The translations under genes and the position numbers were made by a program. The notes under the pieces are model-generated. The model made no database searches. It had not been told where the DNA came from and saw only the letters and a list, made by a program, of their open reading frames with translations. From positions 1-54,066 of the forward strand of contig PEWX01000009.1 of assembly GCA_002779995.1 (NCBI GenBank): a stretch of 54,066 nt of DNA. Reading direction: 5' to 3'. Below, in pieces: positions 7,590 to 31,337 of the stretch (position 1 is the stretch's first letter; each line of letters starts with the position of its first letter). The DNA is from Piscirickettsiaceae bacterium CG07_land_8_20_14_0_80_44_28 (GTDB taxonomy: Bacteria; Pseudomonadota; Gammaproteobacteria; Thiomicrospirales; Thiomicrospiraceae).

Positions 7590-7664
7590 ACCGATTCCTT
7601 AAAAAGTGCCTAAAGTAGGCCTTTGAGAATTACTCAATTCATGTTATTGAACGTTTGGTGAGTG

Positions 7665-7856
7665 CTATTGATACTTTTCTTTGCATTTTTCAATGGCTTG
7701 CCAGTAGGCCGCATTGTTATTGGCGGGGTTTTTACTGTTGTCCCAAAGCGCGCTGGCTTTTTCTTTACAGTCTCTAAGGTCAGCATTTTCACAGCCCGAA
7801 AGCCATAAAAAACTGCTGAATAGGGCGAATAACCAAATTGTATTTAAACGTTTCAT
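7665..7856 (-). CDS. Small lipoprotein, unknown function
   Basis: A 63-residue product with a lysine/arginine start, a hydrophobic stretch and an LSGC lipobox with the acceptor cysteine at about residue 22. The mature part is about 40 residues, hydrophilic, with two further cysteines (DCKE and KCKE) that could form a disulfide. It lies 75 bp upstream of the haem-sensor GGDEF-EAL gene on the same strand. It may be co-transcribed with that gene, but no function is recognised. Confidence 0.6.
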   Translation of the reverse strand: MKRLNTIWLFALFSSFLWLSGCENADLRDCKEKASALWDNSKNPANNNAAYWQAIEKCKEKYQ

Positions 7857-7925
7857 AAAACCTCACTGTTCAACTCCGGGGTAAAAATGTGTGTTTTTGC
7901 AAATGTCAGAGTGCTGTTGGGTGTT

Positions 7926-8066
7926 TTATTCGAGGTGCCCATTTTTTAGAGCTAACTTTTCGTTTGACAGTTTAGCAAATTATCAGCAAAAGCAAAGTAT
8001 TTCCTAACCTCTTGTGATTTCTATAACATCAATTCATAATGAGCAGGGGGTTATTCGAGGTTCCCA
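7926..8066. repeat. Two 16-bp direct repeats upstream of dgt
   Basis: TTATTCGAGGTGCCCA at 7926-7941 recurs as TTATTCGAGGTTCCCA at 8051-8066, differing at one base. The second copy is followed at once by another GGTTCCCA. They lie in the divergent intergenic region between the small lipoprotein and dgt and could be operator-like. Confidence 0.45.
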
Positions 8067-8101
8067 ATAGGTTCCCATTCGCTATTTGGTGAGGAGTAAG
8101 C

Positions 8102-9460
8102 ATGCATCAAGCACAGTCAGAAGCACTAGATTGGACACAACGTTATACCGATTTTTTATCAAGCCAGCCTTCTCGGGAACCGAGGATCGTTTATCAGCGA
8201 GACCGTGCGCGGGTGATTCATTCGGCTTCTTTTCGTCGTTTGCAGGCGAAAACACAAATATTTGGCTTGAACGAATCGGATTTTTATCGAACCCGCCTAA
8301 CGCATTCTATGGAAGTCGCCCAAATTGGCTCAGGATTGGTTGAACAACTGATAACTGTCGGACAAGGGAAGGCTTATATCGACTGGCTGCCCTCATTTTA
8401 TTTGATGGAAGCGATTTGTTTGGCACATGATTTAGGACACCCGCCTTATGGTCATGGCGGGGAGGTCGCGCTGAATTATATGATGCGAAATTATGGTGGG
8501 TTTGAAGGGAATGCGCAAACCTTGCGTATCTTGGCGCGGTTAGGCGAATATACCCCCGAAAATGGTATCGACCTATCGCGTCGCGCCACTTTGGGTGTAT
8601 TAAAATATCCTGCTATTTATGATGACGTCCTATCTCATAACACTGCATATCTGTCCTATTTACAAGCCCCGGATGCGTTTGATTTTAAAACCTTGGATAT
8701 GAGTCGTTGGCATCCGCCAAAAGCCAGCGTTTATCAGGAAGAACAGGCTCAGTTTGAATGGGTGTTGAGTTTATTTTCTGAAGCAGATAGAAAACGCTTT
8801 ACTCAACTGCAAGCTGATGGAAAAGGGTTCCCTAAAACCCAATACAAGGCTCTGGATACCACTTTGATGGAGTTGGCCGATGACATTGCCTATGGGATTC
8901 ACGATTTAGAAGATGCTGTCGCAATGGGAATGGTTTCACGGGATTTGTGGCAAACTGAAGTGATGGAACAGCCTGTCTTTAAAACCTATGCGCTTTGGGA
9001 TGAGGTAATGACGCAACGTTTGTTTAGTGACCGCTCTAAAGACCGTAAACATGCCATTAGCAAAATGGTGGGCATTATGGTGGAAAGCATTTATATGGCT
9101 GAAAATCCTGCCTTTGAGCATCCTTTGTTGCGGTATCAAGCGTGTTTAGGTGAGGCTGAAATGGCGGTGTTGGAGTTATTGAAGCGATTTGTTTATCAGC
9201 ATGTGATTACCCTACCCGAAGTGAAAGGCATGGAATATAAAGGGCAATTGATTGTATTGGATTTGTTTAAGTCCTTAAGAGCCAATCCTCAGGCGTTATT
9301 GCCTAGAAATACCTTTAAGCGGTTTGCACAAGCAGCGTCAGAAAGGGCACAGCATCGCATTTTATCCGACTATATTGCAGGGATGACCAATACTTACGCT
9401 TCGCGCTTGTACGAGAAATTTTTTACCGCTTCTCAAGGCTCGATTTTTGATCGTATTTGA
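8102..9460 (+). CDS. dgt: dGTPase-like deoxynucleotide triphosphohydrolase
   Basis: 452 residues of the HD superfamily. The RDRARVIHSASFRRLQAKTQIF segment, the metal-binding RLTHSMEVAQIG histidine and AHDLGHPPYGHGGE carry the H...HD motif, and a distal ADDIAYGIHDLED supplies the last aspartate. The enzyme cleaves dNTPs to deoxynucleoside and triphosphate, affecting dNTP pools and replication fidelity. A GAGGAG ribosome site lies 5 bases before the ATG. Its 3' end converges with queG and overlaps it by 28 bp, and its terminator candidate lies inside the queG coding region. Confidence 0.93.
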   Translation: MHQAQSEALDWTQRYTDFLSSQPSREPRIVYQRDRARVIHSASFRRLQAKTQIFGLNESDFYRTRLTHSMEVAQIGSGLVEQLITVGQGKAYIDWLPSFYLMEAICLAHDLGHPPYGHGGEVALNYMMRNYGGFEGNAQTLRILARLGEYTPENGIDLSRRATLGVLKYPAIYDDVLSHNTAYLSYLQAPDAFDFKTLDMSRWHPPKASVYQEEQAQFEWVLSLFSEADRKRFTQLQADGKGFPKTQYKALDTTLMELADDIAYGIHDLEDAVAMGMVSRDLWQTEVMEQPVFKTYALWDEVMTQRLFSDRSKDRKHAISKMVGIMVESIYMAENPAFEHPLLRYQACLGEAEMAVLELLKRFVYQHVITLPEVKGMEYKGQLIVLDLFKSLRANPQALLPRNTFKRFAQAASERAQHRILSDYIAGMTNTYASRLYEKFFTASQGSIFDRI

Positions 9461-10665
9461 TGGATCGGAACGGCGTTAATCGGGCTTGCGGATCCAGATT
9501 TAGGTAAATAGTATTTAGCGACCACGGCAGGCCGGTTTGGGGTGCTAAAACGACCAGGCCTGGTCGTTTTTGACGATGTTTTTTGCTTTTGCTTTTGAAC
9601 GTTTAGCGCCCAAAGTCGATGCGTATTCACCATATCGCTATCGATTTGTAATGCGTTGAGGGCATTGATGTTTTCGGCGCGATAGACATCATTGCCAATC
9701 GCAATGCATAAATTTCTCAGCCATTTAACATAGCCAATGCGACGGATGGGAGAGCCTGCCATTTCGGTTAGAAATTGCGCTTCGTCCCAGTGTAGTAATG
9801 TGAGTAAATCGACTTCGTCGAGTGGGGCTTTGGCTTTAAAAGCTTGTTCTTGGGTGGGTTCGGTAAACCGATTCCAAGGACACACCAATTGACAATCATC
9901 ACAGCCATAAATCCGATTGCCGATCAATGGTCGCAAAGACTCTTCAATCACGCCATCATATTCAATGGTTAAATAAGAAATACACCGACGTGCATCGACC
10001 ACTGCATTATCAACAATGGCTTGGGTTGGACACTCGTCCATGCAGGCGGTGCAAGGTCCGCATCCTTGTTGAGTGAAAGGGGGATCAGCGGGGAGTTTAA
10101 GATTGATATAAAGTTCGCCTAAAAAAAACCAAGAGCCTGCTCTGGGGTGAATCAGTAAACTGTTTTTACCAATAAAGCCTAGGCCTGCTTTTTCGGCAAT
10201 CGGCCTTTCAAGAACGGGTGCTGAATCGCAAAAGGCGCGATATCGAAAGGATTCATCACTTTGAGGGTTAAGTGTTGCGATGGCGGTTTCAATTTTTTGC
10301 GCTAGTTGCGCAAGCCGTTTTCGCATGAGTTTATGATAATCTTTGTGTAGCGCGTAACGCGAAATATAGGCTTTGTTTGAAGATTGTAATTGTGAAATAG
10401 CCGAATAGGCTTCGCCATCAAAATAATTCATACGCACGGAAATTAAGCTGAGTGTACCCGGTTCAAGCTCGTCGGGACGAGACCGTTTGCGCCCATGTTT
10501 GGCCATATAATCCATGCTGCCGTGATATTGGTGAGATAACCAGTCTTCAAAAAAAGGTTCATAATGCGATAGGTCCGTGTTCGAAATGCCAATGTCGGCA
10601 AATCCCAGGGATTGACCCCATTGCTTGATTTGTTCCGTTAGCTGGTATAAAGCGTGGTTATCCAC
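9433..10665 (-). CDS. queG: Epoxyqueuosine reductase with C-terminal extension
   Basis: QueG catalyses the last step of queuosine tRNA modification, reducing epoxyqueuosine with cobalamin and two [4Fe-4S] clusters. The clusters are visible as CGPCTACMDECP (about 199-210) and CDDCQLVCPW (about 255-264), and the core (AFCDSAPVLERPIAEKAGLGFIGKNSLLI) is typical. The start is GTG at 10665 with AGGAATC upstream. The protein has 410 residues against about 380 in well-known members. The last 50 or so residues (from about KQKQKTSSK) are basic and Pro/Ser-rich, and contain the 24-bp palindrome at 9547-9570 read as TTRPGRFS. Confidence 0.95.
   Translation of the reverse strand: MDNHALYQLTEQIKQWGQSLGFADIGISNTDLSHYEPFFEDWLSHQYHGSMDYMAKHGRKRSRPDELEPGTLSLISVRMNYFDGEAYSAISQLQSSNKAYISRYALHKDYHKLMRKRLAQLAQKIETAIATLNPQSDESFRYRAFCDSAPVLERPIAEKAGLGFIGKNSLLIHPRAGSWFFLGELYINLKLPADPPFTQQGCGPCTACMDECPTQAIVDNAVVDARRCISYLTIEYDGVIEESLRPLIGNRIYGCDDCQLVCPWNRFTEPTQEQAFKAKAPLDEVDLLTLLHWDEAQFLTEMAGSPIRRIGYVKWLRNLCIAIGNDVYRAENINALNALQIDSDMVNTHRLWALNVQKQKQKTSSKTTRPGRFSTPNRPAVVAKYYLPKSGSASPINAVPIHQIRSKIEP
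9547..9570. terminator. 24-bp perfect palindrome with A/T tails inside the queG 3' end
   Basis: AAAACGACCAGG is followed by its exact reverse complement CCTGGTCGTTTT and then further T. It is a CCAGGCCTGG-tipped hairpin suited to terminate dgt on the plus strand and, by symmetry, able to slow transcription of queG before its stop codon. Confidence 0.7.
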
Positions 10666-10766
10666 TAAAATGATTCCTAAATTCGAAAAATCTTTCCCGC
10701 TTTGAGCGGAATCATCATCTTACCAAATCCACTTATATTTCGCTTAACCATTGCATAGAGGTAACC

Positions 10767-11288
10767 ATGACCCTGAAACCATCTTTTCAAATGCAGCTCT
10801 TGAGTGAAGCAGATACCCTTTGGGTCGCTCAACAGTTTGCTCAGCTCGTGGCTAAGAGTCCGTTATGTGAATCTGGGTTGATGGTGTATTTGGAAGGCGA
10901 TTTAGGTGCGGGAAAATCGTTTTTTTGTCGAGCACTTATTCAAACTTTTTTGCCTAAGCAAAGGGTCAAAAGTCCGACCTATACTCTGATTGAATGTTAT
11001 GAAAGTCCATTTGCGACCCTATTGCATTTTGACCTCTATCGTTTGTGTGATGCAGAAGAACTGGAATTTCTGGGTATTCGTGAATTATTAACACCGCCTT
11101 ATTTAGCCTTGGTAGAGTGGCCGTCAAAAGGGCGAGGAAGTTTACCGGATGCAGATATCCGGCTGCAGTTTGAGGTACTTCCTCAGGGGCGTTATCTGAC
11201 TCTGGATTGCCTAAATGACCGCGCTGAAACTTTCGTCAATAACTTGACAAAACAAATTGGCACAAAACTTGATAAGAACCCAACATAA
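10767..11288 (+). CDS. tsaE: tRNA threonylcarbamoyladenosine biosynthesis ATPase
   Basis: 173 residues. TsaE is the ATPase that supports the TsaB/TsaD enzymes making t6A37 in ANN-decoding tRNAs. The Walker A motif is GDLGAGKS (about 44-51), followed by SPTYTLIECYE and LHFDLYRL, which are family signatures, and LVEWPSKG near 116-123. Length is slightly above the usual 150-160 residues. It leads a plus-strand series with amiB, mutL and miaA, an arrangement common in gammaproteobacteria. Confidence 0.95.
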   Translation: MTLKPSFQMQLLSEADTLWVAQQFAQLVAKSPLCESGLMVYLEGDLGAGKSFFCRALIQTFLPKQRVKSPTYTLIECYESPFATLLHFDLYRLCDAEELEFLGIRELLTPPYLALVEWPSKGRGSLPDADIRLQFEVLPQGRYLTLDCLNDRAETFVNNLTKQIGTKLDKNPT

Positions 11289-11323
11289 AATATAAATCAA
11301 GTGAAACTCCGATGAGGTGTGCG

Positions 11324-12799
11324 ATGATTAAAAAACAAAACAATAATTGGGTTCCGTTATGTTCAATGACGATACTGGTGTTGCTATTGAGCTTATTGCC
11401 AACCAGTGCTTGGTCGAAGATGTCATTAGAAAAAATGCGTTTGGGTCAAGGTAAAGAGCAGACTCGAGTCGTTTTTGAAATAAAAGAAAATCATCGGTTT
11501 AAAATTTCCACCTTAAAAAATCCTGCGCGAATTGTGGTCGATTTTTATCAGTCTGAAAATAAATTAACCTTTTCAAAAATGAAGTTTTTGGATGCGCGTT
11601 TAAAGCAAGCAAGGGTCAAAAATCAATCCAATCGCACACGTGTTGTGCTGGATCTTCGCGATGATTTTGAGTGGGGGTACTTTACCCTAGCCAAAAATAA
11701 CGCGGGTAATGAGCGGGTTGTTATTGATATTAAAAACACGCCAGCAAAACCTGAGATTGCAAAAACGCCCAGGAAGCCTCATACCATTACCAAAGCGGCC
11801 GTCCCTAAAAAGCAACCAGCCAAGCCGGCCATCAAAGCGGCGGTTAAGCCAAAATCGGATATTTCTCAAAATACCCATACACAAGCCAAAATGGATAAAA
11901 GCAGTGATATCTTTGTTTATAAAAATAAAGACCTGGTGGTGGCGATTGATGCCGGACATGGCGGAAAAGATACCGGAGCGATTGGTTATGGCGGGCTTTA
12001 TGAAAAAGACGTGATATTGAATTTGGCATTTCAATTAAAAAAACGCATTGATGCTCAGCCGGGTATGCGCGCCGTATTAACGCGTGATAAAGATGTTTTT
12101 ATCCCTTTACATAAGCGTGTTCGTAAAGCACGAGAGCAGGATGCGGATATTTTCTTATCACTCCATGCCGATGCTTTTCATGATAAGCGAGCGCGTGGTG
12201 GGTCTGTCTATATATTATCGACTTCAGGGGCGAGTAGTGTGATGGCCAGACTGTTGGCAAAATCAGAAAATGCTTCTTTACAGGATGTTAAGTTAAAGGG
12301 GCGCGATGCAGATGTCGCTTTTGTGTTATCTGATTTAACGCGATCAGCCAATATTCGCGCTAGCCGAAAACTGGCCAAAGCGGTTTTAGGGGAAATGGGT
12401 CAGGCAGTTTATTTACATAAAAAATCTGTGCAATCAGCAGACTTTACGGTGTTGAAGTCGATTGATATGCCTTCTTTATTGATTGAGACTGCCTTTATTT
12501 CGAATCCGAGTGAAGCGAAAAAATTAAAGTCAGTTCAATTTCAGGCACAAATGGCGCAATCCATTGTTGAGGGTTTGGAAAAGTTTGTAAGCCAAAATGG
12601 TTCAAAACCCCGTTGGGGGGAACAGCTTTATGTACATTATCGAGTACAAAGAGGGGATACCTTATCTGAAATTGCCGCCAACTATAACCTATCCACTTAC
12701 CAGTTAAAAAAGCTGAATCATATTCGTAAAGCCAATGATTTAAAAGTGGGTCAAAAGTTGCGTATCCCATTGTCTGAAGAGCTGGTTGCCGGTTTGTAA
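11324..12799 (+). CDS. amiB: N-acetylmuramoyl-L-alanine amidase, AmiB/AmiC type with LysM
   Basis: Periplasmic zinc amidase that cleaves the peptide stem from N-acetylmuramate during cell separation. About 491 residues: signal peptide (about 1-32), AMIN domain (about 35-130), a Lys/Pro/Ala linker, Amidase_3 catalytic domain (DAGHGGKDTGA supplies the first zinc histidine and EKDV the glutamate; SLHADAF the later histidine; LIETAFISNPSEA the C-terminal glutamate), and one LysM repeat (YRVQRGDTLSEIA) at the end. The ATG at 11324 is preferred because GAGGTG lies just upstream; a 12-bp longer start exists at 11312. Follows tsaE and precedes mutL. Confidence 0.93.
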   Translation: MIKKQNNNWVPLCSMTILVLLLSLLPTSAWSKMSLEKMRLGQGKEQTRVVFEIKENHRFKISTLKNPARIVVDFYQSENKLTFSKMKFLDARLKQARVKNQSNRTRVVLDLRDDFEWGYFTLAKNNAGNERVVIDIKNTPAKPEIAKTPRKPHTITKAAVPKKQPAKPAIKAAVKPKSDISQNTHTQAKMDKSSDIFVYKNKDLVVAIDAGHGGKDTGAIGYGGLYEKDVILNLAFQLKKRIDAQPGMRAVLTRDKDVFIPLHKRVRKAREQDADIFLSLHADAFHDKRARGGSVYILSTSGASSVMARLLAKSENASLQDVKLKGRDADVAFVLSDLTRSANIRASRKLAKAVLGEMGQAVYLHKKSVQSADFTVLKSIDMPSLLIETAFISNPSEAKKLKSVQFQAQMAQSIVEGLEKFVSQNGSKPRWGEQLYVHYRVQRGDTLSEIAANYNLSTYQLKKLNHIRKANDLKVGQKLRIPLSEELVAGL

Positions 12800-21338: not shown

Positions 21339-22670
<1,332 letters not shown>

Positions 22671-22692
22671 GGTTTTGTCTTGGTTTAATCAA

Positions 22693-22716
22693 AAAACCAC
22701 CAGGCCTGGTAGTTTT
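22693..22716. terminator. CCAGGCCTGG-tipped bidirectional terminator between purA and the CheY-like gene
   Basis: AAAACCACCAGG is followed by CCTGGTAGTTTT: 12-base arms with one mismatch and A/T tails on both sides. It is placed to stop both convergent genes. Confidence 0.75.
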
Positions 22717-22725
22717 GGGTGTGAA

Positions 22726-23082
22726 TTACATCAGTTTGCGGATAATGTCAGGCAGTTTAATGGGGTCAAAAGGTTTAACTAACCAGCCGGTTGCGCCAAA
22801 GGATTTGCCTTGTGATTTCATTTCAGGGCTGGCTTCTGTGGTCATCATTAAAATCGGTGTAAATTTATAATTTTCCAAAGATCGGGCTTTTTGTAAAAAG
22901 GTTAAACCATTCATTATTGGCATATTAATGTCAGAGATGATTAAATCAAATTGAGCAGTTTGCAACTGTGCTAATCCTTCAGCGCCATTTTCAGCAAGCG
23001 CCAAATCAAATTGTTTTCCCAGTACCATTTTTACAAGCTTACGCATGGATGAAGCATCATCAATATACAGTATTTTCTTCAT
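22726..23082 (-). CDS. Stand-alone CheY-like response regulator
   Basis: 118 residues consisting only of a receiver domain. The acidic pair is at D8-D9, the phosphoacceptor is D51 (ISDINMP), the switch threonine is in MTTEAS (81-82) and the conserved lysine is K103 (LVKPFDP). With no output domain, it would act by protein binding, as chemotaxis CheY or pilus regulators do. The ATG at 23082 gives the usual MKKILYIDDASSMRK start; the upstream in-frame extension is AT-rich and does not resemble the family. No kinase is adjacent, and a mobile repeat lies just upstream of it. Confidence 0.88.
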   Translation of the reverse strand: MKKILYIDDASSMRKLVKMVLGKQFDLALAENGAEGLAQLQTAQFDLIISDINMPIMNGLTFLQKARSLENYKFTPILMMTTEASPEMKSQGKSFGATGWLVKPFDPIKLPDIIRKLM

Positions 23083-23198
23083 GTTGTTTGCTCTTCGAGT
23101 TATTTGATCAACTTTAGCATAAATTTGTAAATATAGACGCACAAATATTAAAAATTGTCTGAAAGCAATCACAGAGATTGATACAATAAATTTTTTAT

Positions 23199-23285
23199 GA
23201 GATCTTTGCATGAGTGGGACGCGAAAGAAAAATGTGGAAAATTTTAACCCTTTTTATTCGTGTAGCCATCTCGTGCAAAGGTCTC
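23199..23285. mobile_element. MITE-like repeat, copy A
   Basis: An 87-bp element with ends GAGATCTTTGCA and TGCAAAGGTCTC. It is flanked on both sides by TTTAT (23194-23198 and 23286-23290), a 5-bp target duplication. It sits between the divergent CheY-like and ppiD genes and ends 25 bp before the ppiD start, so it may affect their promoters. No transposase is encoded. Confidence 0.8.
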
Positions 23286-23310
23286 TTTATATTTTACGGG
23301 TTAGAAACTT

Positions 23311-25221
23311 ATGTTACAAAGTATTAGAGACCATGCTCAGGGCTGGATTGCCTGGGTGATTGTGAGTTTGATTATTTTAACGTTTGCGTTGTTTGGTATC
23401 GATCAATATGCTCAAGGAGATAAGATTACTGTTGTCGCAGAAGTGAATGGTGAAGACGTGACTGCTAACGAATTTTTAACGCTATATGATCGTCAAAAGA
23501 ATCGTCTTAAAAATCAATTTGGTGAGATGTATGAGCAAATCGTTAATGATGATGAATTGCGTGATCAGGTCATGGATGCGTTGATTGAATCTAAAGTCAT
23601 TCAACAATGGTCGGCAGATCACAATATGCGTGTTTCTGATGCGCAAGTGTTTGCTATGATTGAATCGGCACCTGTTTTTCAGAAAGATGGAAGGTTTGAT
23701 AAACAGGTTTATCAGGATATTTTGATGCGAAATGGTTTGAATATTGCACGATTCGAATATGAACAACGCCGATTTATGGTTGAAAATCAAAACCGTCAAT
23801 TAACGATGGCATCGGCGATATCAACAGATCAACAGGTTAAAAATCTTGCCGCATTACAGTTCCAGCAGCGCCAAGTGAATACACTGCGTGTGGATCAGCG
23901 TCCTTTTATAGAAGAAGCCAAACCGACTGAAGCCGCTATTGAGGCTTATTATCAGTCTCATCAAGACCAGTATAGAATTCCAGAAAAGGTGCGTATAAAG
24001 TACCTGTTGCTTTCTCAGGACGATTTAGCGAAACAACTGACTGTGACGGATGCAGAAAAGAAAGCATTTTATGATGCGAATAAAGACCAGTTTATCCAAC
24101 CAGAACAGCGTCAAGCCAGTCATATTTTGATTCAAATTGATGAAACAACAACCGAAGCAGAAGCCAAACAGAAAATAACCGATATTGCTGCCAAAATTGC
24201 GGCGGGTAACGCTTTTGAAGACTTAGCAAAAAAACACTCTCAAGACCCGGGGTCGGCTAAGATTGGCGGCGATTTAGGTATGTTTCAACAAGGCATGATG
24301 GTGCCAGAGTTTGATCAAGCGGTGTTTTCGATGCAACCCGGAGAAGTGAGTGAGCCGATTAAAACCGATTTTGGCTATCACATTATTAAGCTAACGAACA
24401 TTCAACCCAAGCGAACGCCTGACTATGCTGAGGTGCAGTCAGATGTAGAAAAACAATTACGTCGTCAACTTGCTGAAAAAGCTTATTTTGAGAAGTTGGA
24501 AGAAATCAGCACAGTGGCTTATGAACAAGCCGATTCAATTGAACCTGCAGCTGAAGTGGTTGGGCTTCAAGTGTCGATGTCAGAATTATTTACACAGCAA
24601 GGTGGTGCAGATGAAGTCACGTCGAACCCCAAAGTCATTACAGCGGCTTTTTCTGATGAGGTTAAAAATAACAAGCTTAACAGTGCAGCCATTGAGTTAT
24701 CTCCAACCAAGTCAGTGGTGCTTAGAGTCGACGAAGTTGTTGCAGCGAAGCAACAATCTTTGGCTGAGGTCAAAGCCAATATTGAATCTGATCTAAAGCG
24801 CCAAGAAGGCATAAAAGCGTCTGCTGAGAAGGCTGAAAAGTTACAGGCGCAATTGCAGTTAGGTGAGGTTAAGATGGCAGAATTGGAAGAAGAGGGGATT
24901 GAGTTTGCTGAACTGGGCTGGTTGACTCGTGAAAATCAATCGGTATTACCCCAGGTAACAGAAGCGATTTTTAAAGCCCCAAAACCAACGGGTCAGCCTG
25001 TTTATACAACCTTTAGGATGTCGACAGGAGATTCAATGGTGTTGGAATTAACGGCCGTCAAAGAAGGGGCATTACCCGAACAAAAGCAAGCGGTCTCGCA
25101 ATTAAAATCGGCTTTAGTGGAAGTGTCTAGTGTGGCAGAAGTAGAAGCCCGTATTAAAGCAATGGTGGCTTCCGCGGATGTGGATGTTCGTCAAAACTAC
25201 AAAACACTCAATTTAAGATAA
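23311..25221 (+). CDS. ppiD: Periplasmic folding chaperone PpiD (SurA N-terminal/PpiC type)
   Basis: 636 residues. An N-terminal inner-membrane anchor (about 12-32: GWIAWVIVSLIILTFALFGI) leads into a periplasmic SurA-like helical region, one parvulin domain (about 265-375, RQASHILIQIDE...FGYHIIKL with GGDLGMFQQGMMVPEFD) and a C-terminal helical part. PpiD assists newly exported outer-membrane and periplasmic proteins near the Sec translocon. Length matches E. coli PpiD. Transcription ends at the perfect palindrome at 25300. Confidence 0.95.
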   Translation: MLQSIRDHAQGWIAWVIVSLIILTFALFGIDQYAQGDKITVVAEVNGEDVTANEFLTLYDRQKNRLKNQFGEMYEQIVNDDELRDQVMDALIESKVIQQWSADHNMRVSDAQVFAMIESAPVFQKDGRFDKQVYQDILMRNGLNIARFEYEQRRFMVENQNRQLTMASAISTDQQVKNLAALQFQQRQVNTLRVDQRPFIEEAKPTEAAIEAYYQSHQDQYRIPEKVRIKYLLLSQDDLAKQLTVTDAEKKAFYDANKDQFIQPEQRQASHILIQIDETTTEAEAKQKITDIAAKIAAGNAFEDLAKKHSQDPGSAKIGGDLGMFQQGMMVPEFDQAVFSMQPGEVSEPIKTDFGYHIIKLTNIQPKRTPDYAEVQSDVEKQLRRQLAEKAYFEKLEEISTVAYEQADSIEPAAEVVGLQVSMSELFTQQGGADEVTSNPKVITAAFSDEVKNNKLNSAAIELSPTKSVVLRVDEVVAAKQQSLAEVKANIESDLKRQEGIKASAEKAEKLQAQLQLGEVKMAELEEEGIEFAELGWLTRENQSVLPQVTEAIFKAPKPTGQPVYTTFRMSTGDSMVLELTAVKEGALPEQKQAVSQLKSALVEVSSVAEVEARIKAMVASADVDVRQNYKTLNLR

Positions 25222-25299
25222 TAACCGTTTCATGAAATAAAGATACGGGTGTCGCGTTTTAAGTCAAATCTATAGTGTCACCCGATATGCCTTTATTGA

Positions 25300-25333
25300 G
25301 CCTAAAAACCCCCAGGCCTGGGGGTTTTTAGGC
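25300..25333. terminator. 34-bp perfect palindrome, bidirectional terminator
   Basis: The two 17-base halves are exact reverse complements, centred on the AGG/CCT of a CCAGGCCTGG core, with five G-C pairs and runs of A and T on the sides. It overlaps the stop codon of the kinase-Rieske gene (25328-25330) and serves ppiD from the other side. Confidence 0.9.
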
Positions 25334-26536
25334 CTCCGCAAGGAAAATATCCCCTTTTGCATCCACTTTGATAGGGACGGGGGTTAACGCATCCTGTAAG
25401 CAAGGCCCTTCAACACAGATACCCTCTTTAATGGTAAAAAATGCATCGTGTACTGAGCATTTCATGGTTTTTTCAAAGGGGTTGATGTCAATTTTATAGG
25501 CTTCATCGAGTGGAACATCTTGGTGGGGACAATTATTTTGGTAAGCCTTAATGTCCTCTTGATATCGAATCAAAATCACTGAATGAGGTAGGGCATCACA
25601 GGGAACGATAGTGGCTTTAGAATTATTCAGTTGTTTTACATTAGCCAGTGGGCGTTTTGCGGGTGGCGTCGACATTAGATTATCTAAGCCTTGTTGCTGG
25701 CATTTTCGTGCGGCAAGTGCCGATGCTGAGAGAATGGCTTCATTTAACGGTTGTTGGTTGATTAAGGCGTCAATCACACCTGCATTAAAGGTATCTCCTG
25801 CACCCAATGTATCAATCGTATGGTCAATGGTGATGGCCGGTTGATGCTGTATTTGGCCACCAGCGGATTGATACCAGGCACCTTCTGTTCCCCAGGTACA
25901 GATTAGCTGGCTTTTTGGCGCTAGCGACTGCACAGACTTTATCAAGACTTCAGCTGATTGATAGCCTTTTTGGCGGGCATAATGATGGGAAAAGAATAAG
26001 ACATTTGCCAAAGGAAACAAGGCTTCTATGCCTTCACGTGCTTTTTCGACCTCAAGTGAGATGGGTTGATGAGTCAAAAATGTTCGAGCAATCTTCAGCA
26101 TACCCGATAAATTTTCAATATTACGACCTTCAAAGTGAAGCCAGTCATATTGTTCGATTTCGGCTTTGGCAAAATAATCGAAACTGAGTTCTTCTAAGTC
26201 TCGAAAATGGGTAATGGTACGACTACCGGTTTGACGACTTTGTAAAACATAAGAAATTGGGGTTTGACCTTTGATAAAACGTTGAATATGGTCAGTGCTG
26301 ATCTGTTTAGCTTTCAAGCCTTGTAGAAGTTGTTTTGCGGCTGTATCAGCTGCAAGGGTCGCCATAATCGTGGTGTCGTGTCCGAGTTGTTGTAATACAT
26401 AGAGGCTATTACAAACATTTCCACCCACTTCATATCGTTGCGATTCTGCACGCAATTCTTCATCTTCGTGTGGGAAATGAGGGGTTTGTAGAATAATGTC
26501 TAACACCACATTACCAATGCCAAGAATTTTCGCCAT
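25328..26536 (-). CDS. Ketohexokinase-like PfkB sugar kinase fused to a Rieske [2Fe-2S] domain
   Basis: One uninterrupted 402-residue frame. Residues about 1-300 are a PfkB kinase closely resembling ketohexokinase: N-terminal VGGNVCNSLYVLQQLG, FEGRNIEN (about 135-142), SLEVEKAREG (about 160-169), CTWGTEGAWY, and the catalytic DTLGAGDTFNAG with the base at D248. Residues about 308-402 are a Rieske ferredoxin domain with the cluster ligands C336-x-H338 and C360-x-x-H363. AGGATAT lies eight bases before the chosen ATG; a longer start at 26569 is less likely. Fructose or a related ketose as substrate is inferred from the family. Why a kinase should carry an iron-sulfur cluster is unknown; redox control or electron transfer is speculative. 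Confidence 0.9.
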   Translation of the reverse strand: MAKILGIGNVVLDIILQTPHFPHEDEELRAESQRYEVGGNVCNSLYVLQQLGHDTTIMATLAADTAAKQLLQGLKAKQISTDHIQRFIKGQTPISYVLQSRQTGSRTITHFRDLEELSFDYFAKAEIEQYDWLHFEGRNIENLSGMLKIARTFLTHQPISLEVEKAREGIEALFPLANVLFFSHHYARQKGYQSAEVLIKSVQSLAPKSQLICTWGTEGAWYQSAGGQIQHQPAITIDHTIDTLGAGDTFNAGVIDALINQQPLNEAILSASALAARKCQQQGLDNLMSTPPAKRPLANVKQLNNSKATIVPCDALPHSVILIRYQEDIKAYQNNCPHQDVPLDEAYKIDINPFEKTMKCSVHDAFFTIKEGICVEGPCLQDALTPVPIKVDAKGDIFLAEA

Positions 26537-27080
26537 TTTTATATCCTGTGTTGGTCTGTCCAAATTCAATTAACCAATTTTATCATAAAGTGTTTCGGAG
26601 ACGATTAAAGCATGGACTTGCTTAAAGTCGACTCTGGGGAAGCGATTAATTTTCTAAGAGATGGCTTTTCGAGGGTTATGCAAAGTTAAAAATTAAAAGT
26701 GAATAATTTTAAAAAACCCTTGACAAGGCCAAGTTGTCGATTACTTTTTTATATTAGCTTTATAGGTTAAGAGTGTTATTTAACGTGTTGTTAATAAAGA
26801 GTAAATTGGTACTTTTGTATCAAAATGCTAATATTTTTTAGCCTTGTTTATAATCCACAGAAGTTGTGGATAACTTTGTGAGCAGTTTTATTGGTTAGGG
26901 GGTAAATGCTTTATATGTCGTGGGGTTTTTTAGAATGATTAAAATTTAAGCACACTCAACAATGTGACTATTAGATGAATTTTTTCTTGTGGTTTTTAGA
27001 ATAAATTGTGCATTCTGGGTGTGTCTAAAATATTTTTTGTTAAAATGATTCAAATTTAGCTAAAAGTTGATCTTTAAACG
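26537..27080. other. AT-rich divergent intergenic region upstream of fnr
   Basis: No gene is seen in these 544 bases. A possible sigma-70 promoter toward fnr is TTGACA (26720-26725) and TACTTT (26742-26747), overlapping an imperfect inverted repeat TGACAA/TTGTCG. Two inverted DnaA-box-like sequences lie at 26851-26859 (TAATCCACA) and 26865-26873 (TGTGGATAA). A TTGAT half-site resembling an Fnr box lies about ten bases before the fnr start, without a matching second half. Confidence 0.5.
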
Positions 27081-27821
27081 ATGACAGAAAAATATTCAAG
27101 CTTTCAAGCCAGCTGTGCAAATTGTGGATTAAAAGGCATTTGTTTTCCCCAGGGGTTGCAAGACGCGGAAATGCAATTGTTGAATGAGCTTGTAGATCGT
27201 TCTCCTTGTGCCATCAAAGGTGAACTGTTATATTCGGCTGGGGATCGTGTTACTGCCCTCTATGCGATTCGTGCAGGGATTGTAAAAATTTATTCCTATT
27301 CTGAAGGTGGTGAGGAGATGATTCATGGTTTTTATTTACCGGGTGATATTATCGGGATGGAATCCATGGCTTTTGAGTGCCATCAATACAATGCGGTTGC
27401 ATTGGATACCACATCGGTCTGTGGGTTGCCTTATCACCGCTTGACAGAATTGGGTATTAAAATACCAAACTTTAATACCCAACTCTTTAGTTTAATGAGT
27501 CTTGAAATTGTTTCCAGCCGCAAACATGCTATGTTATTAACCCAAAAATCCGCAGAACAACGATTGGCAGAATTCCTATGGAATATGTCCCAGAAGTTCC
27601 AATCTAGGGGGTATGAACATCTTCAATTTAGATTGAATGTTCTACATAGAGAAGTCGCCAATTTTTTAAATTTAACGCCTGAAACCATTTCTAGAATACT
27701 CGGTAAGTTTCATCAAGCACAGATTTTGACATGGAAAAGAAAAGAAGTTGTTATTCATCAAGAGGCTCTATTAAGAGCTTGTGCAACTGGGCAAGAAACC
27801 AAAGCTTGCACAGGAGGATAA
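27081..27821 (+). CDS. fnr: Fnr-type oxygen-responsive transcription regulator
   Basis: 246 residues of the Crp/Fnr family. Cysteines C12, C15 and C21 near the N-terminus (SCANCGLKGIC) and C114 (TSVCGLPY) match the four ligands of the oxygen-labile [4Fe-4S] cluster. The cyclic-nucleotide-like beta-roll follows, then a dimerisation helix and a helix-turn-helix (about 190-212) with recognition sequence LTPETISRIL, matching Fnr residues that read TTGAT...ATCAA. It should switch genes for low-oxygen respiration. No clear Fnr box was found elsewhere in the window. Confidence 0.93.
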   Translation: MTEKYSSFQASCANCGLKGICFPQGLQDAEMQLLNELVDRSPCAIKGELLYSAGDRVTALYAIRAGIVKIYSYSEGGEEMIHGFYLPGDIIGMESMAFECHQYNAVALDTTSVCGLPYHRLTELGIKIPNFNTQLFSLMSLEIVSSRKHAMLLTQKSAEQRLAEFLWNMSQKFQSRGYEHLQFRLNVLHREVANFLNLTPETISRILGKFHQAQILTWKRKEVVIHQEALLRACATGQETKACTGG

Positions 27822-27946
27822 CGCTTTTACAGTCTATGGAAAATCCGGGTAAAAATATTCTTTACTTAAAGCTTTCAATCTTGCGAGATATCTTTTAGAA
27901 TTAAGGGCATTACATTAAATTAATAAAATTAAAGAGGGTTTACCAT

Positions 27947-28534
27947 ATGTCTTTATCTGGTCTTAAGCAGTTATTCTTTGTTGGTATTTTAGGTGTCACT
28001 TTAGTGGGGTGTAGTTCAACACCCTCTAACGAAGATAGTGCGTCAAGTGCTGCTGCAACGCAAACGAATGAAGATAAAGCTGCGGCTGAAGCTGAAGCGG
28101 CAAAACTTGCTGCTGAAGAAGCCGAAGCGGCAAAACTTGCTGAAGCTGAAGCCAATGCTGTGCCAACAAATGCAGCGGGTATGACGGCGGATGATTTATT
28201 TGCAGCTTTACAAGGTAAAGTGGTGAATTTTGAATTTGACCGTTCTGAAGTGCGTTCGGAATTTTATAATGTCATTAAGTTGAATGCTGACTATATGGCT
28301 TTAAATAGCCGTGCGAACATTACGATTGAAGGGCACTGTGATGAGCGTGGTACCAGAGAATATAACTTGGCTTTAGGTGAACGTCGAGCGAATGCCGTGA
28401 AAAATGCTTTGATTGCTGAAGGGATTAGTCCAAGTCGCATCAGTGTGATTTCTTATGGTGAAGAACGTCCTGTAGATGCCGCACACAACGAACGTGCTTG
28501 GTCGAAAAACCGTCGCGCGGAATTTAATTATTAA
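27947..28534 (+). CDS. pal: Peptidoglycan-associated lipoprotein Pal
   Basis: 195 residues: signal peptide with lipobox LVGC (acceptor cysteine at about 22), an Ala/Glu/Lys-rich helical linker with a near-duplicated AEAAKLA unit (about 44-70), and an OmpA-like domain with the TIEGHCDERGTREYNLALGERRA peptidoglycan-binding core. Pal anchors the outer membrane to the wall and works with Tol proteins in constriction. TolB and the other tol genes are not adjacent upstream (fnr is), which is less usual for gammaproteobacteria. A strong terminator follows. Confidence 0.93.
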   Translation: MSLSGLKQLFFVGILGVTLVGCSSTPSNEDSASSAAATQTNEDKAAAEAEAAKLAAEEAEAAKLAEAEANAVPTNAAGMTADDLFAALQGKVVNFEFDRSEVRSEFYNVIKLNADYMALNSRANITIEGHCDERGTREYNLALGERRANAVKNALIAEGISPSRISVISYGEERPVDAAHNERAWSKNRRAEFNY

Positions 28535-28554
28535 TTATTGATTCTAGCGTTGGT

Positions 28555-28593
28555 AAAAAGCCTTTCTGCCTAGGGTAGAAAGGCTTTTTTTTT
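28555..28593 (+). terminator. Rho-independent terminator after pal
   Basis: AGCCTTTCT and AGAAAGGCT form a perfect 9-bp stem with a nine-base loop, preceded by A and followed by nine T. Confidence 0.93.
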
Positions 28594-28682
28594 ATCTATA
28601 GATTGGTACCATGCCTAAAAATGACACTAATCAGTTAAAAGCGTGCTGTAATAATTTAACAATTGGAATATAACAAACCGAT

Positions 28683-31337
28683 ATGATTTCTCGACCTACT
28701 GAAAAATTTTTGAAAGACTATCAACCTCCCGGTTTTGCAATAGACTCAGTGTCTTTAACCTTTGTACTCAAACCTGAAAAAACGCAAGTTTATAATTGTA
28801 TGAAAATTACACCATTAACAAATGCCACAGAATTGGTTTTGGATGGTGAACATCTTCGTTTAATATCCGTTTCAATTGATGGCGTTGACTTGACTGATAA
28901 ACAGTATCAATTGACTCAAACAAGCTTGATATTAAAGTCACCACTGAGCTCATTTGAATTGGAAGTGATCACAGAAGTCGATCCCGAAAAAAATACTCGT
29001 TTAGAAGGTCTTTATCGAACGAATGGTATTTATTGTACTCAGTGTGAAGCAGAAGGTTTCCGATCGATCACCTATTATTTAGATCGCCCGGATGTATTAA
29101 GTTATTTTACAACCAAAGTGATTGCCAGTAAGTCGGACGTTCCTGTGTTGTTATCGAATGGAAATCTCATTGAATCAGGAGAGTTGGATTCTGAAAAACA
29201 TTACGCTATTTGGCATGATCCATTTAAAAAACCGAGTTATTTATTTGCTTTGGTGGCAGGGGATCTAAAAAAACTTGAAGATACTTTTTTAACGCATGAA
29301 GGGCGACAGGTTAATTTAGAGATTTATGTAGAGCCACATAATATTGATAAATGTTCTCATGCGATGACATCACTTAAAAAAGCGATGGTTTGGGATGAGA
29401 AACGCTTTGGGCTGAGTTATGACTTAGATCGATATATGATCGTTGCCGTAGATGATTTTAATATGGGGGCAATGGAAAATAAAGGGTTGAATGTTTTTAA
29501 CTCAAAGTTTGTATTAGCGGATTCAGCCTCAGCAACGGATCATGACTACGAAGGCATAGAATCGGTTATAGGCCATGAGTACTTCCATAACTGGACGGGT
29601 AACCGCATTACTTGTCGTGACTGGTTCCAGTTGACTTTAAAAGAAGGGCTGACGGTATTTAGGGATCAAGAGTTCAGCGCAGATATGTTATCTGCTTCGG
29701 TAAAAAGAATTGAAGATGTTCGTCAGTTAAGAAGTTACCAGTTCCCGGAAGATGCAGGACCAATGGCTCATCCCATACAGCCCCAGTCCTATATAGAAAT
29801 GAATAATTTTTATACGCTAACTGTCTATGAGAAAGGCGCTGAGGTTGTTCGCTTGTACCATACGTTATTAGGTGAGTCCGGATTCCAAAAGGGAATGCAA
29901 CTATATGTCGAACGCTATGATGGTCAAGCCGTCACCATAGAAAACTTTAGAAGCGCTATGGCCGATGCCAATCATCAAGATTTATCACAGATGCACAATT
30001 GGTATATTCAAGCCGGAACGCCCCGATTAACCGTACGTGAAGAATTTGATGCGTCTTCGCAAAGTTATCAATTGCACTTTTCTCAGTATTTGAAAGATCA
30101 ACAATCTCATTTACCTTTTTTAATTCCTGTATTGATTAATTTTATGGATAAATCAGGAAAATCATTAACCATTCAATTGAAAAATGCTTCTAATCAGTCA
30201 TATATAACTGAAAAAGGATTTTTGTTAAAAATAACAGAAATGAATCAATCGTTTGAATTTGTTGGTTTGACTGAAATGCCTATCGTTTCGTTGCTAAGAA
30301 ATTTTTCTGCCCCAGTTCAACTTGATTTTTTTAGAGATTCAGACGCGTTGATGACGCTGGCTAGCTTTGATGATGATCCTTTTGTTCGATGGGAATCCAT
30401 TCAAGTGCTGGCAATGAATAATTTTAAAGCTTGTGTTGAATGTTATGAAACAAATCAACCAATGCAGTTATCGGATCCGTATCAAGTTGCCTTTTCTCAG
30501 GTATTGCAAGATGAAACCCTTGATAAGGCACTAAAGGCGTTGGCAGTTTCTCTACCTGAACTCAGTTATTTGGCTGAGCAGTATCGCACAAAGAACATTG
30601 ATGCACTCTTGGCTGCGCATAATTTTTTAAAAAAGGCTTTGGCGGAAACCTTTGAAAAAGAACTTAAACACCTCTACCTGAAATTACAAGCAGAAGAAGA
30701 GGAAAGCTACCACTATACTGAGGTGTCCATTGCTCGGCGAAAGCTAAAAAATATTTGCTTGAAATATTTATTGCAATTGACGCATAATCAATCTTTGGCT
30801 GTTGAACAATATCAATCTGGTCATAATATGACTGATATATTGGCGGCCTTAGAATCGATGAACCAAGTTGACTCCTCTGCGAGAGATGCGTGTTTATCAG
30901 ATTTTTATCAAAACTGGCAGGGTGAACAACGGGTTCTTGATAAGTGGTTTGCGCTACAGGCAAGTGCGCCCCTTGATAATATTATTGAAATTATCAAAGG
31001 GTTGACGAAGCATCTGCACTTCTCATATCAAACACCTAATCGCGTCAGAAGTGTACTTGGGGTCTTTGGTCGACAAAATTGGGAAGGCTTTCATCGTGCT
31101 TCGGGCGAAGGTTATCAGTTTTTTGCGCAACAAGTTTTGCACGTGGATGTCATTAACCCTCAAGTGGCAGCAAGACTGGTTGGCGCATTTTCTGGGTGGC
31201 GTAGTATTTCCGAGCCGAGAAGGACTAAAATGAAAAAGGCGCTCATGTATATCTTGGCTCAAGAAACCCTATCAAAAGATGTGTATGAAATTGTAACGAA
31301 AACACTTGGAGATCAAAGTGAGGCGAATGATGGATGA
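28683..31337 (+). CDS. pepN: Aminopeptidase N (M1 family)
   Basis: 884 residues. A broad cytosolic zinc aminopeptidase that clips N-terminal residues from peptides. The substrate-binding GAMENKG lies near 262-268 and the zinc site HEYFHNWTGNR with the distal glutamate in LKEGLT near 298-320. A beta-rich N-terminal domain (RPTEKFLKDYQPPGFAIDSV) and a long helical C-terminal domain are as in E. coli PepN, whose length is similar. It stands alone after the pal terminator. Confidence 0.96.
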   Translation: MISRPTEKFLKDYQPPGFAIDSVSLTFVLKPEKTQVYNCMKITPLTNATELVLDGEHLRLISVSIDGVDLTDKQYQLTQTSLILKSPLSSFELEVITEVDPEKNTRLEGLYRTNGIYCTQCEAEGFRSITYYLDRPDVLSYFTTKVIASKSDVPVLLSNGNLIESGELDSEKHYAIWHDPFKKPSYLFALVAGDLKKLEDTFLTHEGRQVNLEIYVEPHNIDKCSHAMTSLKKAMVWDEKRFGLSYDLDRYMIVAVDDFNMGAMENKGLNVFNSKFVLADSASATDHDYEGIESVIGHEYFHNWTGNRITCRDWFQLTLKEGLTVFRDQEFSADMLSASVKRIEDVRQLRSYQFPEDAGPMAHPIQPQSYIEMNNFYTLTVYEKGAEVVRLYHTLLGESGFQKGMQLYVERYDGQAVTIENFRSAMADANHQDLSQMHNWYIQAGTPRLTVREEFDASSQSYQLHFSQYLKDQQSHLPFLIPVLINFMDKSGKSLTIQLKNASNQSYITEKGFLLKITEMNQSFEFVGLTEMPIVSLLRNFSAPVQLDFFRDSDALMTLASFDDDPFVRWESIQVLAMNNFKACVECYETNQPMQLSDPYQVAFSQVLQDETLDKALKALAVSLPELSYLAEQYRTKNIDALLAAHNFLKKALAETFEKELKHLYLKLQAEEEESYHYTEVSIARRKLKNICLKYLLQLTHNQSLAVEQYQSGHNMTDILAALESMNQVDSSARDACLSDFYQNWQGEQRVLDKWFALQASAPLDNIIEIIKGLTKHLHFSYQTPNRVRSVLGVFGRQNWEGFHRASGEGYQFFAQQVLHVDVINPQVAARLVGAFSGWRSISEPRRTKMKKALMYILAQETLSKDVYEIVTKTLGDQSEANDG

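Follow-up and report, generated by a model that had tools for sequence, protein, structure and literature searches.

Human ketohexokinase (KHK; EC 2.7.1.3, structures 2hqq and 3nbv) shares its kinase fold and all six tested pocket and catalytic residues with the protein described here, but the ten listed KHK chains, of 298-318 residues, have the size of a kinase alone and hence lack the Rieske domain that our protein carries. According to PMC11332825 and PMC2651755, activity of the human enzyme is abolished when D15, N42 or N45 is replaced by alanine, mutation of R141 or K174 lowers it (K174A slightly, to 92%), and the catalytic residue is D258. PMC11519228 describes the ketohexokinases of haloarchaea as only distant relatives of the eukaryotic KHKs. 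Sulfofructose kinase YihV (7ag6, 7agk) belongs to the same superfamily and forms the second-best structure family (Z about 35), but it is only 22% identical to the kinase studied here, and its chains are also kinase-sized (295-302 residues), without a Rieske domain. On the other side of the comparison, the Rieske-type ferredoxins of dioxygenases (3gce, 2i7f and 1fqt) and the NirD small subunit (3c0d, 2jo6) share the fold of our Rieske domain and its CxH...CxxH ligand set. Their identity to it is 15-23%, however, and only in the present protein is the Rieske domain fused to a kinase.

A pairing of a PfkB protein with a redox protein is known from plants, where the fructokinase-like proteins FLN1/2 have thioredoxin z as partner, as reported in PMC4036507 and PMC3409070. 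That partner is a thioredoxin acting in plastid transcription, whereas the present one is a covalently attached Rieske domain. Moreover, according to the title of PMC4036507, autotrophic growth does not require the redox activity, which makes this a weak precedent. Among the matches listed in a search of the open-licence PMC literature, judged by titles and the starts of abstracts, we found no description of a ketohexokinase- or PfkB-Rieske architecture. The PfkB kinases and the Rieske proteins are both known families, and it is their combination for which these matches hold no description. Rieske domains carry electrons and sugar kinases perform no redox chemistry. A conserved kinase-Rieske pair, either fused or adjacent, in bacteria most of which fix CO2 is therefore unexpected, and this conserved pairing suggests that sugar phosphorylation is tied to redox state.

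The gene was found in a contig of Piscirickettsiaceae bacterium CG07_land_8_20_14_0_80_44_28. The whole stretch of 54,066 nucleotides that was analyzed is referred to below as the window. A preliminary description, made from the DNA letters, had reported a single uninterrupted frame at 25328-26536 that encodes a ketohexokinase-like PfkB kinase fused to a Rieske domain. The frame is indeed uninterrupted over 402 codons and lies on the minus strand; translation of the plus-strand frame from 25328 gave many stops. The features to which the text refers are the following:

25328..26536, minus strand: KHK-Rieske fusion gene, with ATG at 26536, last codon at 25331 and stop at 25328-25330; 402 amino acids
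25673..26536, minus strand: kinase domain of the ketohexokinase-type PfkB kind, residues 1-288 (PF00294, alignment to human KHK, model match to 2hqq)
within 25673..26536, minus strand: kinase pocket residues D13, N40, N43, R138 and K165, and catalytic D248
25649..25672, minus strand: variable linker, residues 289-296 (mean pairwise identity 0.25, zero invariant columns)
25331..25648, minus strand: Rieske domain, residues 297-402 (PF00355, ligands invariant in 34 of 34, model match to 2i7f)
within 25331..25648, minus strand: Rieske ligand set C336/H338 and C360/H363, and the additional invariant C374 and C379
27081..27821, plus strand: Fnr/Crp-type regulator gene, divergent neighbour, named by eye

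A Pfam-A scan of the 402-residue protein, which accepted E values up to 0.1, found two domains. The PfkB match (PF00294) covers residues 1-288 with an E value of 1.3e-36 and 126.9 bits against a curated cut-off of 25.8, and the Rieske match (PF00355) covers residues 297-382 with an E value of 6.7e-10 and 39.2 bits against a cut-off of 20.3. Both of the domains that had been read by eye in this one protein are thus above the Pfam cut-offs, and the motif positions were also given correctly (GAGD with D248, C336-P-H338 and C360-S-V-H363). The start methionine is aligned in all 34 fusion proteins of the window's family, Thiomicrospiraceae.

Human ketohexokinase is the best solved relative of the kinase half by sequence (E value 6.5e-48, residues 3-287), with sulfofructose kinase and ribokinase far behind. 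Its residues D15, N42, N45, R141, K174 and D258 align to D13, N40, N43, R138, K165 and D248, and these six positions are invariant in the 34 family fusions as well as in all 38 rows of an alignment of fused and split relatives. Within the GAGD motif, D248 is present in 34/34 and G245 in 33/34 of the family fusions. An AlphaFold model of the whole fusion, based on the 38-row alignment A4 (obtained by dropping one apparently misaligned stand-alone Rieske row from A3), had a mean pLDDT of 93.7 and a pTM of 0.76. The kinase half of this model superimposes on human KHK (2hqq) with a Z score of 41.5 and an rmsd of 1.3 Å over 288 residues at 35% identity, and Foldseek gave a TM score, by target length, of 0.93 against human KHK. 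With all six tested KHK residues matched and the KHK fold predicted, the earlier assignment of the kinase as ketohexokinase-like is well supported, and the enzyme is a putative ketose 1-kinase.

For the Rieske half, the four ligands C336, H338, C360 and H363 are invariant in the 34 family fusions and throughout a 15-row alignment of fused and stand-alone partners. In the same 15 rows, a motif G-x-C-x-x-G-P-C, which contributes C374 and C379 here, invariably follows the ligand loops; 3gce retains only the second of its cysteines. When modelled alone, this half gave a pLDDT of 93.5 and a pTM of 0.86, and the best structural match was the Rieske ferredoxin 2i7f (Z score 14.5, 2.0 Å over 100 residues), with Z scores of 13.6 to 3gce and 13.3 to 3c0d. 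The closest solved relatives are the ferredoxins of dioxygenases and of toluene monooxygenase. Respiratory Rieske proteins of the bc1/b6f type have extra disulfide cysteines in both ligand loops (CTHLGC and CPCH). Those cysteines are absent from the loops CPHQDV and CSVH of our protein, and the respiratory class was rejected. From the ligands and the fold, we infer that the C-terminal domain binds a [2Fe-2S] cluster.

We then determined how well the fusion is conserved. A match spanning both D248 and the Rieske ligands was present in 62/62 genomes of the window's family, covering seven of its seven genera, and a search at the order level returned the same 62 fusion genomes. Two of these matches are partial (residues 1-375 in G055 and 72-400 in G065). 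Eight family rows flag one internal stop; for the four that were extracted (G003, G004, G011 and G017), an open frame covers both domains, and the other four are G055, G059, G060 and G065. Among eight close pairs, dN/dS was 0.028-0.097 for the kinase half (six pairs) and 0.009-0.048 for the Rieske half (five pairs); the remaining pair estimates were saturated, and several of the dS values, at about 2, are rough. In 7/8 pairs the Rieske half had the lower dN. Purifying selection thus acts on both halves.

These results bear on the possibility that a stop codon between two genes had been lost in the sequence data. An arrangement from which such an artefact could arise does exist: in the relative G035 the kinase gene ends in a stop codon that is followed at once by the in-frame ATG of the Rieske gene. 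However, the presence of the fusion in every one of the 62 family genomes and the low dN/dS in both halves rule out a sequencing error, and we regard the chance of a sequencing or assembly artefact as negligible. The preliminary description had named separate halves together with a sequencing error as what would speak against the fusion. Separate halves were found, as adjacent genes in other families, but the error part is excluded, and the check that it had proposed, a conserved PfkB-Rieske architecture with intact sites, came out positive, with both active sites invariant in 34/34.

To place the pair in a wider context, 369 genomes sampled evenly from the class Gammaproteobacteria were searched. 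An E value of 1e-40 or better was taken as a kinase match, and 1e-13 or better as a match to a Rieske profile derived from the fused and the adjacent partners. Kinase matches were found in 101 genomes and Rieske matches in 142. The Rieske domain is on the same strand as the kinase and either fused to it (9) or immediately 3' of it (28) in 37 of the 101 kinase genomes, with at most 95 bases between the two matches where the downstream frame is separate. Another 22 kinase genomes have the Rieske elsewhere, 21 of them unlinked and one (G304) directly upstream of the kinase. Counting the latter, the pair is fused or linked in 38/101. The locus of G304 (L095) has the order reversed, with the Rieske gene directly 5' of the kinase, and the linkage is retained. 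The remaining 42 kinase genomes have no matching Rieske, and 83 of the 268 kinase-less genomes have a Rieske match. When one genome per family was taken, 19 of 43 kinase families had the pair fused or linked downstream. Because 42/101 kinase genomes do without the Rieske and 21 more have it unlinked, it is unnecessary for kinase catalysis, and its presence in 83/268 genomes without the kinase indicates that it can act alone.

A scan of named genomes, in which 64 loci among the best 80 matches were classed by profile, overlaps the 369-genome sample and is neither a census nor independent of it. It gave at least 18 fused loci (Hydrogenovibrio, Thiomicrorhabdus, Thiomicrospira, Halothiobacillus, Guyparkeria and metagenome-assembled genomes), at least 17 in which the two genes are separate neighbours (including four labelled Methylophaga, Candidatus Thiodiazotropha taylori and Thiogranum), and at least 29 whose fetched stretch contained no Rieske, some of which reach a contig end and three of which are only distant PfkB kinases (E value about 1e-20). 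One record labelled Spirochaetaceae, a metagenome-assembled genome (L159), has a kinase of this type with 41% identity to the query and no Rieske; this occurrence outside the gammaproteobacteria could be due to transfer or to a binning error.

The distribution of the fusion was followed on a kinase-domain tree of 111 rows, built by a quick method and unrooted, which leaves out 24 thinned family rows, duplicates, and rows shorter than 240 residues or weaker than 1e-60. The fused state requires three changes on this tree, of which two are forced by starred branches, against a mean of 22.8 when the states were shuffled. The three fused groups are the window's family, Halothiobacillaceae together with Guyparkeria and G206, and G115 alone. 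The linked and unlinked states interleave, with 19 changes each and shuffled means of 33.0 and 35.2. As the tree is unrooted, changes may be gains or losses, and we do not claim a number of fusions. The adjacent gene pairs of other families are likely to represent the state before fusion, and in what we consider the simplest reading, which is likely, an ancestral gene pair fused on separate occasions. The clearest intermediate is the arrangement in G035, where loss of the single stop codon would produce a fusion.

We also investigated which metabolism accompanies the kinase. The RuBisCO large chain (PF00016, E value at most 1e-30, all RuBisCO forms pooled) was found in 176 of the 369 sampled genomes: in 93/101 with the kinase against 83/268 others, in 33 of the 38 with a linked pair and in all nine sampled fused genomes. 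With one genome per family, by which kinship was handled in place of a species tree, RuBisCO was present in 40/43 kinase families and 36/115 others (Fisher p 5.7e-13). It was present in 18/37 families with a Rieske but no kinase, and in 18/78 with neither. Among the eight kinase genomes that lack RuBisCO, three have hexulose-phosphate synthase HxlA of the RuMP cycle above cut-off, compared with 0/12 controls lacking both RuBisCO and the kinase; HxlA was found neither in the window's genome nor in G218. All three HxlA-positive genomes belong to one family (f3), whose kinases sit among those of Methylophaga on the kinase tree. The five kinase genomes with neither RuBisCO nor HxlA include three that are 72-88% complete and two, G269 and G418, that are 98-100% complete. 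In 5 of 50 neighbourhoods (L039, L069, L077, L081 and L085), a gene recognised by eye as phosphoribulokinase is close to the kinase. By the RuBisCO, HxlA and phosphoribulokinase data, the kinase thus goes together with cycles in which ketose phosphates are turned over.

As a control, a sugar kinase of the ribokinase type (TIGR02152, E value at most 1e-60) was found in 7 of 158 one-per-family genomes, with two of the seven over the curated cut-off. Two of these seven have RuBisCO and none has the ketohexokinase-like kinase; by this small control, the idea that association with RuBisCO is a general trait of sugar kinases was rejected. Sucrose synthase (PF00862) was present in 56/369 genomes, with 36/101 among kinase genomes and 20/268 among the others; within RuBisCO genomes the figures were 34/93 with and 19/83 without the kinase, a small difference (p 0.07). 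It is absent from 65/101 kinase genomes and from 9/9 sampled fused genomes, and sucrose-derived fructose was accordingly rejected as a general source of substrate. Some of the relatives that have sucrose synthase may nevertheless use plain fructose. Some of the matches lie in very long open frames: a RuBisCO large chain in one of 1482 residues (G326:C47:34201-35127), and sucrose synthase in frames of 1791 (G121:C1:231264-232133) and 1618 residues (G413:C242:1998-2867). These may be fusions or merely long open frames.

As a whole, the explanation that we consider best, at somewhat short of an even chance, is that of a ketose 1-kinase which a Rieske cluster gates or to which it is electrically coupled. 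In it, an ATP-dependent ketose 1-kinase of the ketohexokinase type would carry a C-terminal Rieske ferredoxin domain with a [2Fe-2S] cluster, and would serve ketose metabolism around the Calvin (CBB) cycle, or around the RuMP cycle in some relatives, for example by rephosphorylating free ketoses. The cluster would be a redox sensor or an electron relay that sets kinase activity to the redox state of the cell. The computed observations are two intact domains in one frame, their conservation, purifying selection, recurrent gene linkage and the RuBisCO association. A redox gate on the kinase, and the exact ketose, are what we infer beyond these, and the gate is our first choice because the linkage recurs, because none of the neighbouring genes was recognised as coding for an oxygenase or reductase, and because carbon assimilation must follow redox supply. 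More specifically, the Rieske cluster, perhaps together with C374/C379, might read the redox state and thereby turn the phosphorylation of ketoses on or off in gammaproteobacteria that fix carbon or use the RuMP cycle, which we think possible but doubtful. The Calvin cycle of plants is controlled by thioredoxin, and an iron-sulfur-gated sugar kinase would, if true, be the bacterial iron-sulfur counterpart of that control. If the cluster does control the kinase, central carbon metabolism would have a redox switch of a new kind, and the eukaryote-like ketohexokinases of autotrophic bacteria would gain a role.

Since each part also exists without the other, a strong rival is that a kinase for ketoses and a Rieske protein of general electron transfer are made from one message simply to be co-expressed, and that the two domains do not influence each other. 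Besides the 42/101 kinase genomes without a Rieske and the 83/268 kinase-less genomes with one, this is favoured by the variable linker and by the fusion model, whose pTM of 0.76 leaves the mutual orientation of the kinase and Rieske domains unfixed. It accounts less well for a pair that is adjacent or fused in 38/101 genomes, with the linked state dispersed over the kinase tree, and one may argue that retention of the fusion in 62/62 genomes goes beyond the needs of co-expression; we rate it as rather unlikely. A protein working in two steps, in which the Rieske domain supplies a separate oxygenase or reductase with electrons and this enzyme produces or consumes the sugar that the kinase phosphorylates, would suit the kinship to dioxygenase and toluene monooxygenase ferredoxins. 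However, inspection by eye of the frames at 22000-30000 of the window revealed no oxygenase or ferredoxin-reductase gene, and neither did the gene clusters common to at least three of 50 neighbourhoods, where most single genes are unannotated; such a role seems decidedly unlikely. That the Rieske fold has lost its cluster and has a structural or dimer-stabilising role only is very improbable, as the four ligands are invariant in 34/34 fusions and in 15/15 fused and split rows, and dN is lower in the Rieske half in 7/8 pairs.

The preliminary description had placed the gene one gene away from fnr, another iron-sulfur redox sensor. The Fnr-like gene is in fact directly adjacent, as the next listed upstream frame, and there is no open reading frame of 80 or more residues between the two. 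The window and the upstream stretches of relatives were scanned with the Fnr-box consensus. The best match between the fusion gene and the Fnr-like gene has two mismatches and is located at 26844. Sites with up to two mismatches occur 0.74 times per 500 bases in the window, and 17 were found in the 500-base upstream stretches of 28 relatives (0.61), so that they are no commoner upstream than in the window at large. This absence of enrichment does not support Fnr control of the fusion gene, nor does it disprove it. On the other hand, the reverse complement of the window's single Fnr-box-like site there is present in L003 and, almost unchanged, in L004, and the upstream region of L021 has a site with one mismatch. 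Beside the site of the window, within 26844-26873, the sequence TTGTGGATAA at 26864 resembles a DnaA box.

Other neighbourhoods show arrangements of their own. In 10 of 50, the gene just 5' of the kinase codes for a protein that combines cyclic-nucleotide-binding and rhodanese domains with a very long coiled coil, as judged by eye (L072, at 6658-11499 on the minus strand, and L039, L070, L076, L077, L081, L085, L086, L087 and L090); the protein has about 1600 residues or more in most of these loci, and Pfam was run on that of L072 alone. At four loci with only the kinase (L101, L102, L104 and L105), a pentapeptide-repeat-like gene, recognised by eye, is located directly 3', in the position where others have the Rieske gene. 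In family f3 (L035, L071 and L083), the pair follows adk, behind an HDOD-domain gene, sppA and a HAD phosphatase gene, all by eye, and in L035 these three genes are in turn preceded by rluC.
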